Source: Candidatus Brevibacterium intestinavium
GTDB taxonomy: Bacteria; Actinomycetota; Actinomycetes; Actinomycetales; Brevibacteriaceae
Direction of reading: 5' to 3'
Assembly: GCA_019117545.1 (NCBI GenBank)
Contig: DWZN01000238.1
Location: forward strand, 1-35,450
DNA length: 35,450 bases
Made by a program: the position numbers and the translations under genes. The notes beneath the pieces are model-generated. The model searched no databases. It was not told the origin of the DNA and was given only the letters and a program-made list of their open reading frames with translations. The stretch's first letter is position 1, and each line of letters begins with the position of its first letter. Shown here in pieces: positions 19,430 through 24,583 of the stretch.

Positions 19430-20965
19430 ATGTACTCACCTGAAACCCGTCGTGCCGCCGTGGCGGAGCTGCGGACCTCCACCCTCGCCGAGGTGGCCGA
19501 ACGCACGGGCGCCTCACCGTCGACCCTGCGTCGCTGGGCGAGCCGGACCGATCTCGAGGATCGTCCGCGCAGCGGTCGTCCGCCGATCCAGGGCACGGCC
19601 GATCGGGTCATCGAGGCGCTGGTCGCAACCGCCGGAGCGAGGATCTCGGGACGCGACTACTCGAGCCGGGCGCTGTCGGAGGCGACCGGGCTGAGTCAGA
19701 GCATCGTCTCACGCTCCTTCCGGTCCCTGACCGTGCCCGCCGCCGAGGTGACCGGAGGCCGTGAGCTCGTCCTCGCGGCGGCCGGCTTCCCCCTCCTCGT
19801 CTTCGGCGTCCGCGCCGATGCTTCCGCCGGCGAAGGCGTCGGCGGACCGGCCGTTGGGCTTCGGCGGATCCGAAGACGCATCGCCGGGATCACGGCGGCG
19901 CTGCGTTCGGCCGGTGTCCAGCGCTGGCCCCAGCGGTTCGGCAGCGAGCACCGGCAGGTCCGCACCGCTGATCTGCTGGCGCTGGTCTCCGGCGAGATCG
20001 GCGACGACTTCCTCGTCTTCGACCCTCTGGGCGAAATGCCCGATGTCGGGCCCGATGTCGGGCCCGGAGTGAGCGTGCATCGGGACTTCGAGGAATTCGT
20101 GGTCGCGCTCAAGCACGTGCTCGCCGGGTGTCAGGACATTCCCGGCTCTCTGCTCGACCAGCTCGCCGCCCGTGTCAGGAACGGTCTCGAAGGGGTGATG
20201 TGGCGCGAGTCCGTCCAGCTCGAGCCGGTGAGAAGTTCTATTACTTCTGACTCAATGGAGATCTCTTCGTGGTTGCCGAAGGAGACCAGGTCGATCACCG
20301 AGCATCTGGCGATCGCCCTGCGCGAGGAGATCATCGACTCCGGCTACGACCCCGGCGATCGGATCAATCCGCGTCTGCTGTCGCGGCGCATGCGGGTGCC
20401 GCGGGCCTCGGTGGATGCGGCGCTGCGCCGGATGGTCGACGACAAGCTGCTCGACGGTTCCCGCGGCGGTGCCCGCATCCCGCTGATCACAACCGTCGAC
20501 GTGCTCGACCTCTACGCCGCGCGCATGGCCATCGGGGAAGTCGTGCTGAGATCGCTGTCCCTGCGCCCCCAGCGCTACCTGGTTCCCGTGCAGCTGGCGC
20601 TGCGGCAGGTCGAGGCCGCGGCACCGACGCGCAGCGGCATCGACGTCGAGGACGCCGACCTGCACTTCCAACAGGAGCTCGCCCGCGCCTCGGGGCTGCG
20701 TGAGTCGGCACGCGCCTTCGAATCCCTGACCCTGCGGCTGCGGCTGTTCATCTCCGTGCTCCAGCTCGACTACTCCCCGGCCAGCGACCGCATCGTCAGC
20801 GACGACCGGGCGATGTTCCGGTCGCTGGCCCGTGCGGATGCGAGGACCGCGATCGAGGTCTGGCGGGGCAAGGTCGACAACGCGGTGCGGCACATGGCCG
20901 GGCTGCTCGGCCGGCGCCGCTTCGACCAGGAGCTGTGGACCCAGCTGACCCGCAGCCTCGGCTGA
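19430..20965 (+). CDS. Composite regulator: transposase-like HTH domains fused to a GntR/FCD-like domain
   Basis: The 511-residue protein has an unusual architecture. Residues 1-110 contain two helix-turn-helix units (STLAEVAERTGASPSTLRRWA and SSRALSEATGLSQSIVSRSF) joined by an RPRSGRPPI linker, resembling the paired DNA-binding part of IS630/Tc1-type transposases. Residues about 110-270 are an unrecognised region with no DDE catalytic motif. From about 285 a GntR winged helix (ITEHLAIALREEIIDSGYDPGDRI...RRMRVPRASVDAALRRMVDDKLL) leads into a helical C-terminal domain like FCD. No ribosome site precedes ATG 19430, but a TAGAAT -10 ends 7 bases before it, so leaderless translation is likely. 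It is divergent from putA and may regulate it. An internal in-frame ATG at 20255 opens the GntR part. Confidence 0.8.
   Translation: MYSPETRRAAVAELRTSTLAEVAERTGASPSTLRRWASRTDLEDRPRSGRPPIQGTADRVIEALVATAGARISGRDYSSRALSEATGLSQSIVSRSFRSLTVPAAEVTGGRELVLAAAGFPLLVFGVRADASAGEGVGGPAVGLRRIRRRIAGITAALRSAGVQRWPQRFGSEHRQVRTADLLALVSGEIGDDFLVFDPLGEMPDVGPDVGPGVSVHRDFEEFVVALKHVLAGCQDIPGSLLDQLAARVRNGLEGVMWRESVQLEPVRSSITSDSMEISSWLPKETRSITEHLAIALREEIIDSGYDPGDRINPRLLSRRMRVPRASVDAALRRMVDDKLLDGSRGGARIPLITTVDVLDLYAARMAIGEVVLRSLSLRPQRYLVPVQLALRQVEAAAPTRSGIDVEDADLHFQQELARASGLRESARAFESLTLRLRLFISVLQLDYSPASDRIVSDDRAMFRSLARADARTAIEVWRGKVDNAVRHMAGLLGRRRFDQELWTQLTRSLG
20042..20065 (+). repeat. Tandem 12-bp duplication inside the composite regulator
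   Basis: GATGTCGGGCCC occurs twice in succession and adds the peptide repeat PDVG-PDVG to the unassigned middle region of the regulator. It stays in frame and probably reflects slippage. Confidence 0.7.
20236..20255. repeat. Intragenic copy of the 20-bp inverted repeat
   Basis: TTCTATTACTTCTGACTCAA is the reverse complement of the promoter copy at 19403-19422, matching 19 of 20 bases. It sits at the junction between the unassigned middle region and the GntR domain, ending on the A of an in-frame ATG (20255). It also contains AGAAGT-TCTATT-ACTTCT (20231-20248), a perfect 6-bp inverted repeat. The AT-rich composition contrasts with the surrounding coding sequence. Confidence 0.7.
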
Positions 20966-21001: not shown

Positions 21002-22345
21002 TCAGAGCCCGAGGAGGGCGATGGCGATGGTGAAGTACACGAGCAGTCCGCTGGCATCGCAGAAGGTCGAGATGAACGGCGTCGACACGACCGCCGGATC
21101 GACCCTGCCGGCCTTCGCGACGATCGGGATCGAGCCGCCGACCACGGCCGCGATCGGGCAGTTGACGGTGAGCGTGAGCGCGATGACCGCCCCGATCTCG
21201 ATGCCGTAGAGCGGCGAGGCGATCGCGAACGCCGGCACCGCCAGCAGCACCCCGAGCAGCAGCCCCGTCGTCAGCTCCTTGCCGGCGACGCGGAGGAAGT
21301 CGCGCAGGCCGATCTCGTCCATCGCCAATGCGCGGGTCACCGTCGTCGCGGCCTGCGAGCCCGTATTGCCGCCGATGCCGGTCAGCAGCGGGATGAACAG
21401 CGCGAGCGCGACGACCTCGGCCAGCGTCGATTCGAAGATCTCGAGCACATGGACGGTGAGCACCGCCGAGATCGCGAGCACGAGCAGCCACACGATGCGG
21501 GTGCGGGCGATCGTGAGGATCGAGGTCGGAAGGTACCGGCGGTAGAGCGGCTGAGTGCCGCCCGACAGCGCGTAGTCCTCCTCGTCGGCCTCGGCGATGA
21601 TGCGCGCGGCGTCCTTGATCGGCAGGATCCCGACGAGGCGGCCCTCCCGGTCCCCGATGGGCAGGACCGTGACGTCCTCGCGCAGGGCCGCCCGGGCGGC
21701 GGTCTCCATATCGTCATCGGTGTGGGTGATCTCCTCGATCGGTTCGGCCAGGCCGGCCACGCCGGTGCCGGGCGCGAAGCGGAGGAGTTCGAGGGCGTCG
21801 AGGGTGCCGACGATCCGACGGTCGAGGGTGAGGACGGGGATGAGGCGGACGTCCTCGAGGTCGACCTCGGTGTCGCGCAGACGCTGGGTCACCTCGGCGA
21901 CGGTGTCGTCTGTCCACGCGATCACGGCCGTCGGCGACATCCGGCGGGCGATCGAATTCCGGCCGTAGCCGGCGATGGCCATCACCGCGCCGAGGTCGGA
22001 GGCGGGGACGGCATCCAGCAGCTTCGCGGTGACGTTGGCCGGAAGCTCATCGACGAGGCGGCCCTGATCCTCGGGGTCGAGGTCGCTGAAGATCGAGCTC
22101 AGCTCCTCCGTGTGGAGGGCATCGATGATGTCCGAGCGGGTGCCCCGGTCGAGGTCGTCGAAGACCTCGACGGATTCGTCCTTCGGCAGCAGTCGGAAGA
22201 CGATCGCGGCTTCGGTGGCCGAGAGCTCGGCGATGAGTTCGGTGGTCGCATTCGGCCCGAGATCCCGGATGGCGGCGCCGAGGGAGGCGAGATCGCGGTC
22301 TTCGGTCAGCGAGCGGACTGTGGCGGCGTCGAGGACTGAGGTCAT
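21002..22345 (-). CDS. mgtE: Magnesium transporter MgtE
   Basis: This 447-residue Mg2+ channel/transporter has the family layout: an N-terminal helical superhelix domain (about 20-125, with EELSSIFSDLDPEDQGRLVDELP), a pair of CBS domains (about 130-260) that sense cytoplasmic Mg2+, and five C-terminal membrane helices (about 275-447). The pore-region wording is FIPLLTGIGGNTGSQAATTVTRALA, followed by LTLTVNCPIAAVVGGSIPI and STPFISTFCDASGLLVYF. It acts as a homodimer in the cytoplasmic membrane. The start at ATG 22345 has TTGGAG 5 bases before it. A 14-codon leader ORF with its own strong ribosome site ends 47 bases upstream, which suggests translational or attenuation control. Confidence 0.95.
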   Translation of the reverse strand: MTSVLDAATVRSLTEDRDLASLGAAIRDLGPNATTELIAELSATEAAIVFRLLPKDESVEVFDDLDRGTRSDIIDALHTEELSSIFSDLDPEDQGRLVDELPANVTAKLLDAVPASDLGAVMAIAGYGRNSIARRMSPTAVIAWTDDTVAEVTQRLRDTEVDLEDVRLIPVLTLDRRIVGTLDALELLRFAPGTGVAGLAEPIEEITHTDDDMETAARAALREDVTVLPIGDREGRLVGILPIKDAARIIAEADEEDYALSGGTQPLYRRYLPTSILTIARTRIVWLLVLAISAVLTVHVLEIFESTLAEVVALALFIPLLTGIGGNTGSQAATTVTRALAMDEIGLRDFLRVAGKELTTGLLLGVLLAVPAFAIASPLYGIEIGAVIALTLTVNCPIAAVVGGSIPIVAKAGRVDPAVVSTPFISTFCDASGLLVYFTIAIALLGL

Positions 22346-22357
22346 GACGTACTCCAA

Positions 22358-22465
22358 GCAGAGTCGAGTCGACGCGTGCGCTGAGGCAGGCGTCAGTGGA
22401 AGAGGGGGAGGGGGCACAATCGACTGTCGGGATCCATTGACAACCACCTCCCGGAACTCTGCTCG
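22358..22465 (-). promoter_or_regulatory. Long-range complementary segments in the mgtE leader
   Basis: In the minus-strand leader RNA, CGAGCAGAGT (22465-22456), just before the leader-ORF ribosome site, can pair with ACTCTGCTTG (22364-22355), just before and partly within the mgtE ribosome site (TTGGAG). The helix would be 10 bp with one G-U pair and would enclose the leader ORF. It could make access to the mgtE ribosome site depend on whether ribosomes occupy the leader ORF. This was inferred by eye; no folding was computed. Confidence 0.4.
22393..22437 (-). CDS. Putative mgtE leader peptide (14 codons, MgtL-like)
   Basis: The tiny frame encodes MDPDSRLCPLPLFH. It is preceded by GGAGGTG (22445-22451), a near-perfect Shine-Dalgarno, 7 bases from the ATG: better than that of mgtE itself, which starts 47 bases after the leader stop. 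The Asp/Pro-rich beginning and the PLP...LF ending recall the MgtL leader of Salmonella mgtA (starts MEPDPTPLP). In that case low Mg2+ or slow Pro decoding alters translation of the leader and raises transporter expression. That such control works here is inference. No M-box riboswitch was recognised. Confidence 0.55.
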   Translation of the reverse strand: MDPDSRLCPLPLFH

Positions 22466-22552
22466 AAGGAAACTCTGTGCGCGCGAACGGCGCACGGACC
22501 GAGTCTAACCGAGACCGGCGGCCCGACGGGAATCCGGGCCGGGCGCCGACTG

Positions 22553-23208: not shown

Positions 23209-23278
23209 AGAACAGGACTGACCAGCCCGGATCATGCTCGTGCCCGGCCGTGTCAGTGCCGAGCGGTACCGTCTTCCC

Positions 23279-24583
23279 ATGGACGTCGACACCGCCGGGC
23301 ACCCATCGCAGGGCCCCGATCCGCTGACCGAGATCGGCGGGTTCGGCGAGCTCCTGCGCAGCCTCGAAGTCGGTGGGACGGAGGCGGAGACGCTGGCGCG
23401 GATCACCGCGCTCGAAGAGCTCAAGGCCACCATCGCCTCCGCACAGGCGCGTGAGGCCGTGGCCTTCGAGCGGCTGCGCGTCGAACGCGATCGCCTCAAC
23501 CGGGTGCCCGCCCGTGACTGCGGCGTCCGCGCCGGCGACGAGGTCGGACTGGCCAAGCGGGTCTCTCCCGGTTCGGGACGGAAGTTCCTGAGCACGGCCC
23601 GCACGGTCGTGACCGGCCTGCCCAACACCTTCAAGGCGCTGGCGACGGGCTCGATCTCCGAGGACAAGGCTCGGATCATGGTCGAAGAGACCGCCGTGCT
23701 CGGCGCCGCCGACCGCCGCCGGGTCGACTCCAGGATGAAGCGCAGCCTGGGACCGGCCGGGCTGCGCAGCCTGCGCACCGAGGCACGCGCGCTCAGCGCC
23801 GAGATGGACGCCGAGGCGGCCGCGAAGCGGGCTGCGAAAGCAGCGTCGAATCGGCGCGTGAGCCTGACCCCGCTCGAGGACGGAATGGGCCGGATCTCGG
23901 CGATCCTGCCCCTGCCGCAGGCCGTCGCCGCCTTCGAGAGCCTGCGGAGGGCCGCCGAGGCGACCGTCGCCGGCGGTGCGGCGAACGGCCGCAGCCGAGC
24001 GCAGGTGCTCGCCGACACCGTCGTCGAACGGCTGAGCGGTCAGCCCTCGGCCTCCGCCGTGCCGGCGGAGGTCCACCTGGTCGTCGAGGCTGAGTCTCTG
24101 CTCTCGGACGGGCTGGTGCCGGCCTGGCTGCCCGGCTTCGGTCCGCTGCCGGCCAAGACCGCCCGCGAGTTCGTCACCGCGAACGAGGCGCGGGTCCTCA
24201 TCAGCAGACTCTTCACCCGACCCGAAGACGGGCAGCTCGTGGGGATGGAGGCACGGGGCCGGGAATTCACCGGCCGGCTGCGCCAGATGCTCGTCTTCCG
24301 CGACGATGTGTGCCGAACTCCCTGGTGCGATGCGCCCATCCGGCACGCCGACCACGCCGAACCCCATGCCGGGGGAGGACCGACCGAGTGGAACAACGGT
24401 TCGGGACTGTGCGCGGCGTGCAACTTCGCGAAGGAGCACCCCGGCTGGGCCCACGAGGCCACGGCAGAAGGGCTCAAGGTCACCACGCCGAGCGGCCGCA
24501 CCTACACGGTGACGACTCCGGCGCTGGTGCGCCGCATGCGATACCCCGCCCCGAGTGCGGACCGGATGCGGCAGAGTCGATGA
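23279..24583 (+). CDS. DUF222-HNH endonuclease domain protein
   Basis: The 434-residue protein has a long helical DUF222 region (about 20-320) and a C-terminal HNH nuclease domain. The HNH core is well preserved: zinc Cys345, Cys350, Cys378 and Cys381 (CRTPWC ... LCAACN), the Asp358-His359 pair (RHADHAEPHAGGG), and the final His387 (FAKEHPGW). Such proteins occur in many copies in actinobacterial genomes; their role is unknown. The start at ATG 23279 has no ribosome site; one at 23234 is also possible and equally weak, so leaderless translation is likely. The stop overlaps the start of a small downstream gene (ATGA). Confidence 0.85.
   Translation: MDVDTAGHPSQGPDPLTEIGGFGELLRSLEVGGTEAETLARITALEELKATIASAQAREAVAFERLRVERDRLNRVPARDCGVRAGDEVGLAKRVSPGSGRKFLSTARTVVTGLPNTFKALATGSISEDKARIMVEETAVLGAADRRRVDSRMKRSLGPAGLRSLRTEARALSAEMDAEAAAKRAAKAASNRRVSLTPLEDGMGRISAILPLPQAVAAFESLRRAAEATVAGGAANGRSRAQVLADTVVERLSGQPSASAVPAEVHLVVEAESLLSDGLVPAWLPGFGPLPAKTAREFVTANEARVLISRLFTRPEDGQLVGMEARGREFTGRLRQMLVFRDDVCRTPWCDAPIRHADHAEPHAGGGPTEWNNGSGLCAACNFAKEHPGWAHEATAEGLKVTTPSGRTYTVTTPALVRRMRYPAPSADRMRQSR

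Follow-up and report, generated by a model that had tools for sequence, protein, structure and literature searches.

The gene mgtE, which encodes a Mg2+ transporter, is preceded in Candidatus Brevibacterium intestinavium by a 14-codon open reading frame (ORF) whose N-terminus recurs in short ORFs upstream of mgtE in other actinobacteria and, in one genome, upstream of corA-family and mgtA genes as well. We analyzed this leader in a 35,450-nt stretch of the genome (contig DWZN01000238.1, positions 1–35,450; hereafter the window). The ORF is conserved in the clade that carries the orthologous mgtE, and leaders of this type combine a head rich in the codons AGT and CGA with a tail of ordinary codon usage. 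We tentatively propose that they form a family of actinobacterial leader peptides placed 5' of mgtE, corA and mgtA genes, which likely sense low Mg2+ through ribosomes that falter at an early acidic residue and rare codons; sequence comparison makes this reading plausible, somewhat short of probable.

Conservation of the leader within Brevibacterium

The leader frame runs on the minus strand from an ATG at 22437 to a TGA at 22393, encodes MDPDSRLCPLPLFH, and includes rare AGT and CGA among codons 2–8. Its Shine-Dalgarno (SD) sequence, which can also be read as GGGAGG, places GGAGG (22451–22447) 9 nt 5' of the leader ATG, and the leader stop lies 47 nt from the mgtE ATG (22345). A sequence-only reading of the window had pointed to this frame and its strong SD, and we found both to be present and kept in all seven orthologous loci, where the gap between leader and mgtE ranges from 47 to 85 nt.

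All 57 genomes of the genus had an MgtE match, which in five of them was a distant one only (E 1e-6 to 1e-9). Orthologs of the window mgtE (77–95% identity) occurred in 7 of the 57, and most of the other genomes carried an mgtE paralog of 42–49% identity. A leader pattern of 24 bases, allowing three mismatches at most, matched exactly the seven ortholog-bearing genomes among the 57, once each; the reversed pattern, used as a control, gave no matches. The seven leaders were MDPDSRLCPLPLFH (window), MDSDSRLCPLPHFR, MDSDSRLCPLPHLR, MDSDSRLCPLPLFR, MDSDSRLCTASPIH and MDSDSRLCRPSPMP, the last found twice. Their consensus is a 14-codon frame with a strong SD (7/7) that begins MD[S/P]DSRLC and ends in a variable tail, and length, stop codon and the CGCCTGC after it were unchanged in all seven. 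Because the frame is kept in 7/7 orthologous loci, we concluded that the leader ORF is beyond chance.

The sequence-only reading had also likened the peptide to the Salmonella leader MgtL on account of its Asp and Pro residues. The acidic part of that likeness held, with Asp2 and Asp4 in all seven leaders, whereas the proline part did not: residue 3 is Pro in the window only, the six other leaders having Ser there, and tail prolines are not maintained (e.g., tails TASPIH and RPSPMP). Because Pro3 is private to the window, Asp/Pro content is not what has been conserved; the feature retained is an early acid with Ser/Arg encoded by rare codons after it. For the same reason, the lack of proline conservation, we dropped proline sensing, and the suggested proline-responsive switch is unlikely. 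The two Brevibacterium clades encode Ser5 differently, one by AGT and the other by TCT, which changes two bases and leaves the residue the same. In mgtE itself, codons were unchanged between the window and B. casei at 239 of 346 conserved residues.

Leaders upstream of mgtE in other genera

Scanning 84,980 species genomes gave at least 581 confirmed relatives, the best 80 of which served as named mgtE loci; these were screened for short ORFs with an SD, as were the closest MgtE homologs from the order. The family motif, an early acid or glycine followed by Ser/Arg, was applied to 450-nt upstream regions and matched in 20 of the 80. Two of these matches (Gordonia L115 and L125) are probably chance, judged by appearance only. 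Because the loci used to derive the motif were also those used for counting, the control rates, and not the match count, bear the argument. In other parts of these loci, 6 of 1,710 ORFs with an SD matched, one of the six being the mgtE leader of B. album, which lies further upstream; among simulated upstream regions, 17 of 4,000 matched. In two further sets, the motif occurred in 8 of 28 order loci and in 2 of 24 genus loci, those of the window and B. album; this genus set did not include the remaining six orthologs.

Reading individually 19 loci that had been scored leaderless added seven related leaders, and 10 further regions added two. Leaders found in other genera include MADPCSRSCQ... 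(Sediminivirga), MSDSHSRSS... (Timonella), MGDPLSRSH... (Leucobacter), MSDSLSRSR... (Sphaerimonospora), MNSDSSPYRSC... (Rothia), MNSDSSSHRSC... (Gulosibacter), MNCDSSPHRQ... (Corynebacterium kalidii) and MDDGNSRST... (Arthrobacter). When 13 leader-bearing genomes were each searched in full with the pattern of their own leader type, all 13 gave a single match, the mgtE leader. In an 88-row MgtE tree the leader was clustered, requiring 12 changes compared with a mean of 22.6 after shuffling (0 of 500 shuffles as low); seven rows labelled as lacking a leader in this tree were later found to have related ones, and L119 and L069, with short translations, were left out.

A loose leader pattern matched in at least 197 of 396 order genomes, mostly with two or three mismatches. 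The pattern GAGGTG..AGYGAYAGY matched in 20 of 394 class genomes, one match being an mgtE leader; the other 19 loci (about 3 kb each) had no MgtE match, CorA and MgtA not having been searched for there. These 19 matches mostly looked like starts of long frames, and the short L187 and L188 lay within or antisense to longer frames. The type-A leader pattern matched in none of 384 class genomes. The type-B pattern matched at 24 places in 20 of 386 order genomes, namely five mgtE leaders, the two leaders described in the next section and 17 others, which are probably chance, as judged by the frames themselves and a cursory inspection of some 1.5 kb of downstream sequence. NCBIfam gave no match for the 8 leaders, of 36 collected, that were searched.

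In Brevibacterium album, an mgtE paralog (43–46% identity) rather than the window ortholog has a leader of another subtype, MNSDSSSRKPDTTVASMNPA, several hundred bases upstream (L129, 2456–2518).

Leaders upstream of corA-family and mgtA genes

One genome, G206, presumably Actinotalea caeni (contig NZ_WNXX01000021.1), carries two near-identical leaders 3.8 kb apart, MSDDHSRS... (L221:7204–7308) and MSDKHSRS... (L221:11035–11145), both of which begin with AGGAGGTGATCCGTCGTGAG. Downstream of the first come a small ORF and two or more CorA-family genes (141.4 and 115.3 bits with PF01544, gathering score 27; 113.4 and 102.8 with TIGR00383, short of the 200.75 cut-off). Downstream of the second lies a gene for a Mg2+-translocating P-type ATPase, mgtA (TIGR01524, 1158.9 bits, cut-off 610.75). 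MgtE, CorA and MgtA are unrelated proteins that have Mg2+ transport in common, and Mg2+ is therefore the likely signal of the leader: one cassette 5' of three unrelated transporter types points to it. The Mg2+ side of the switch suggested by the sequence-only reading is thus strengthened, from this single genome. Plasmid searches with mgtA, corA and the G206 leader showed no further leader among the matches looked at, one of which was a Streptomyces plasmid corA without a leader.

Some observations on these loci are separate from the leader itself. In the region 7373–8716 of L221 (G206:C13:12001–30000), the ORF between the first G206 leader and the first corA-family gene is 110 amino acids long, and in the region 1202–2385 of L246 the Streptomyces plasmid corA has directly upstream a short ORF with a hydrophobic stretch; such short ORFs 5' of corA perhaps encode a small membrane partner of CorA. 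The 57.9-kb G206 contig (L221, L220; G206:C13:1–30000) holds mgtE, the corA-family genes and mgtA with plasmid-type-looking genes nearby, and is possibly a mobile Mg2+-transport island.

Peptide and codon features

We collected 36 distinct leaders, 34 of them upstream of mgtE. Asp or Glu occurs within residues 2–4 in 36/36, in a set partly selected with a motif that favors early acids, and at least two acids occur within residues 2–5 in 12/36. Ser is present within residues 5–7 in all 36, and Ser-Arg within residues 2–9 in 24. Pro within residues 2–6 was seen in five leaders, within the genus in the window only.

The codons of the head differ from those of the tail. In codons 2–10 of 23 leaders, AGT accounted for 44 of 76 Ser codons and CGA for 13 of 22 Arg codons; in the tails the shares were 0 of 39 and 2 of 31. 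The same codon positions in 67 predicted control genes had AGT at 5 of 52 Ser and CGA at 9 of 68 Arg, and gene bodies had 41 of 1,416 and 92 of 1,738. The comparison is given as counts, and related leaders are not independent. The rare TCT is among the replacements for AGT preceding Arg. Across leaders Ser is retained through AGT, TCT, AGC and TCC, and the conserved part has alignment gaps with lengths of 3 and 6. We argue from the gap sizes and the switching of Ser codons that the N-terminus is translated and selected, and from the rare-codon head that there is a constraint on decoding or on the bases themselves.

RNA structure of the leader region

The sequence-only reading had proposed a 10-bp helix enclosing the leader and reaching the mgtE SD. 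The helix is present in the minimum-energy fold and extends to 14 bp, G-U pairs included (CTTCGAGCAGAGTT, 22468–22455, with GACTCTGCTTGGAG, 22365–22352), taking in the mgtE SD GGAG (22355–22352). It is neither above shuffled arms (p = 0.13) nor conserved: the upstream alignment of relatives, which keeps the ORF and SD and does not keep the Asp/Pro pattern, has an invariant 7-bp core of the helix in four of seven species, a counterpart of different sequence in B. casei, and no clear counterpart in the other two. Better kept than the helix is a predicted hairpin (22395–22386 with 22379–22370) with the leader stop codon at the start of its 5' arm; p is 0.034 for the window, 0.012–0.13 for six loci and 0.47 for B. 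casei.

These structures bear on an alternative in which the leader RNA is itself a Mg2+-sensing structured element, an undescribed riboswitch, with the frame secondary or an accident of conserved bases. The rare codons amount to strong base-level conservation (AGTCGAT and similar), the hairpin after the leader stop is fairly well kept, and the folded 179-nt leader of the window is more stable than shuffled sequences (z = −2.15; 1 of 200 equally stable), all of which would fit such an element. Against it, no Rfam family, the M-box included, scored at or above its gathering threshold in the window or in any of 57 related mgtE loci, whether leader-bearing or not, in agreement with the sequence-only reading, which had seen no obvious M-box; the M-box was also absent from all 40 loci then counted leaderless. 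Moreover, no structure common across genera was found in the leaders examined, and the varied Ser codons, the gaps of 3 and 6 and the strong, kept SD fit a translated frame. We consider a riboswitch unlikely, although it is the alternative that survives best.

A self-occluding leader, in which the leader SD pairs with 3' codons of the leader as it does in many folds, was a further candidate that we rejected, since the pairing was, overall, not above that of 400 synonymous recodings per leader. SD occlusion was singly notable in B. casei (p = 0.002, outside the set combined by Fisher's test) and in Leucobacter sp. cx-42 (p = 0.042).

Proposed mechanism and alternative explanations

We infer that the leader is translated in the cell, that Mg2+ is the signal, that early pausing or drop-off is the sensor and that the RNA rearranges in response. 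At low Mg2+, young ribosomes would falter or drop off at about codons 3–6, at the early acid and the rare Ser/Arg codons, and their failure on the leader would shift the RNA downstream toward transporter expression. At high Mg2+ the leader would be translated in full, up to the stop codon within the 5' arm of the predicted hairpin, giving the OFF state; occlusion of the mgtE SD and Rho-dependent termination are the two candidates for the silencing step. By analogy, convergence with the early ribosome destabilization of MgtL and MgtQ would be the best-supported mechanism. We would also suggest, with a shade less confidence than we place in the sensor itself, that a portable Mg2+-sensing leader evolved in Actinobacteria independently of enteric MgtL and MgtQ, using slow AGU and CGA codons together with an early acid, and was fitted to mgtE, corA and mgtA. 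If true, rare codons would be a working part of an ion sensor, a new sensing principle. Convergent control with the ribosome as Mg2+ sensor becomes testable in Gram-positive actinobacteria, and the split of head and tail codons means that acid, codons and tail can be altered separately.

Several results weigh against this proposal, besides the origin of the motif in the loci where it was counted. The link to corA and mgtA comes from G206 only, which was the one genome with mgtA among 14 checked; mgtA was not found in the other 13. The leader is patchily distributed over the MgtE tree, a pattern that fits transfer, loss and missed variants. Fewer than two acids occur within residues 2–5 in 24 of 36 leaders, and a single acid is a weak destabilizer by the published standard; even di-acidic residues alone are insufficient for destabilization, according to the part of PMC11282234 used here. 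The structural results are also unfavorable. The duplex energy of the long-range helix was no better than that of shuffled arms in any of the seven loci (p = 0.11–0.85; window 0.13), and occlusion of the leader SD did not exceed that in recodings (p = 0.17 by Fisher's test, which covered 16 of the 21 leaders; p = 0.21 for energy). Masking of ribosome footprints never opened the mgtE SD of the window, whose unpaired probability was 0.01 in all four states; it was 0.00–0.05 in the S111 and renqingii loci, and results were mixed in the others.

The leader could instead be a passive translational coupler that loads ribosomes near mgtE or keeps the mRNA open, without sensing. Its strong SD and the distance of 47–85 nt to mgtE in seven loci would suit that role, and reinitiation-type leaders that raise downstream translation have been proposed (PMC4833913, in the portion drawn on here). 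Coupling leaves unexplained, however, why an acid is kept, why a rare-codon head is joined to an ordinary tail and why Mg2+ transporter genes are chosen, and we judge it slightly less likely than the riboswitch.

We are more doubtful still of a codon-starvation attenuator, in which the Ser/Arg head would report, instead of Mg2+, the charging of serine or arginine tRNA or translation stress in general. The strong enrichment of AGT and CGA in codons 2–10 does recall classical amino-acid leader peptides, but every downstream gene identified encodes a Mg2+ transporter and none is an amino-acid gene, and the acid within residues 2–4 of every leader is not needed for starvation control. Least likely, and in our view improbable, is the sequence-only version, in which the helix encloses an MgtL-like Asp/Pro leader that responds to Mg2+ or proline: the 14-bp helix over the mgtE SD and acids 2 and 4 in 7/7 agree with it, whereas neither Pro3 nor the prolines of the tail are conserved, three of seven species have lost or altered the helix, which is also not above shuffles, most of the 5' arm of the helix lies outside the assumed ribosome footprint, and the mgtE SD was closed in every state.

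Comparison with known systems

Leader peptides of Mg2+ transporter genes are already known as a kind, and the leader type described here is a variant. In the open-licence literature, with subscription papers and preprints outside the scope of the search, we found no account of such a leader family; the upstream ORFs (uORFs) for Mg2+ found there in actinobacteria were mycobacterial and came with M-boxes. The comparisons below draw on excerpts of the cited papers.

The proposed Mg2+-sensing leader resembles MgtL, the leader of mgtA in Salmonella and E. coli, in being a short ORF upstream of a Mg2+ transporter gene (PMC11282234, PMC11552253). In MgtL, Glu2 and Asp4 cause drop-off, which is countered by EttA, and the acids act early in the chain (PMC11282234); the Brevibacterium leaders have Asp2 and Asp4 at these positions. 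Early ribosome destabilization is established as the sensor for MgtL (PMC11282234, PMC11552253) and would be the sensor here. MgtL requires an EPDP motif, as excerpted, whereas here Pro is lacking at residues 2–6 in 31 of 36 leaders and the companion of the acid is rare AGT/CGA. The leader described here also belongs to another phylum, has mostly mgtE downstream, and shows no sequence otherwise visibly alignable with MgtL.

MgtQ of Salmonella has 8 codons, an AGGAGG and Asp2/Glu5; its acidic codons impede its own translation, which releases the mgtB SD and so promotes translation of mgtB, and its Pro codon plays its role through base pairing only (PMC8092293, in the excerpt). The likeness lies in the strong SD and in Asp2 with a second early acid; in MgtQ the downstream SD is stem-occluded in one state, and here the predicted helix would cover the mgtE SD. 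MgtQ, however, sits inside an operon between mgtC and mgtB and has alternative stems tested by mutation, whereas here the hairpin after the leader stop is partly kept and we found no conserved alternative stems. CorL shows that corA, too, can be under a Mg2+-responsive leader ORF in E. coli and Salmonella (PMC11552253); it is a separate leader for a separate gene, whereas here mgtE, corA-family and mgtA genes share one type of leader.

Conserved uORFs in actinobacterial Mg2+ leaders are exemplified by the mycobacterial M-box uORF2 (Rv1805A) and by the mgtE uORF of M. abscessus, which is ribosome-protected (PMC12810186, PMC4974804). In these excerpts the mycobacterial uORFs accompany an M-box and Pro7 of uORF2 is nearly universal; here there is no M-box at gathering score and Pro7 occurs in 2 of 36 leaders, and we set the peptides apart on these two features. 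The mgtE motif, a riboswitch candidate of Thioalkalivibrio, is likewise a regulatory leader 5' of mgtE with a stem that holds the mgtE SD; it is a structured RNA reported only in Thioalkalivibrio and, in the excerpt of PMC11109978, not described as a uORF.

Other features of the window

Coordinates are collected in Table 1. A single TANNNT site lies within 110 nt upstream of the leader in each of the seven orthologous loci, at −47 to −72, and the position of this −10-like site is consistent with co-transcription of the leader with mgtE.

Table 1. Positions, strand and supporting evidence for features at the mgtE locus.
Feature	Position	Strand	Evidence
Leader ORF, 14 codons, MDPDSRLCPLPLFH	22393–22437	−	Length, start and stop identical in 7/7 orthologous loci
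Leader SD, GGGAGGTGG	22444–22452	−	Sequence; GGAGGTGG kept in 7/7 loci
mgtE, Mg2+ transporter	21002–22345	−	TIGR00400, 289.8 bits, cut-off 232.75
mgtE SD GGAG, 6 nt 5' of ATG	22352–22355	−	Sequence; GGAG 5' of mgtE in 7/7 loci
TAGACT, −10-like hexamer, predicted promoter 5' of leader	22502–22507	−	TANNNT pattern
Predicted long-range helix, 5' arm, CTTCGAGCAGAGTT	22455–22468	−	Minimum-energy fold; shuffled arms p = 0.13
Predicted long-range helix, 3' arm, GACTCTGCTTGGAG, includes mgtE SD	22352–22365	−	Minimum-energy fold
Predicted hairpin, 22395–22386 with 22379–22370; 5' arm starts at leader stop codon	22370–22395	−	Fold
CCTCCC within leader ORF, predicted pairing with leader SD (22447–22452)	22406–22411	−	Minimum-energy fold

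A LexA-like operator was considered in the MNSDSS leaders and dropped after comparison by eye with the consensus. On the plus strand, an ORF of 511 amino acids (19430–20965) has an N-terminus similar to transposase-type models and a C-terminus similar to a GntR-like regulator model, all below cut-off, and is perhaps a fused regulator. Also on the plus strand, an ORF of 449 amino acids (23234–24583) is without an NCBIfam match; its C-terminal part presumably resembles an HNH endonuclease.

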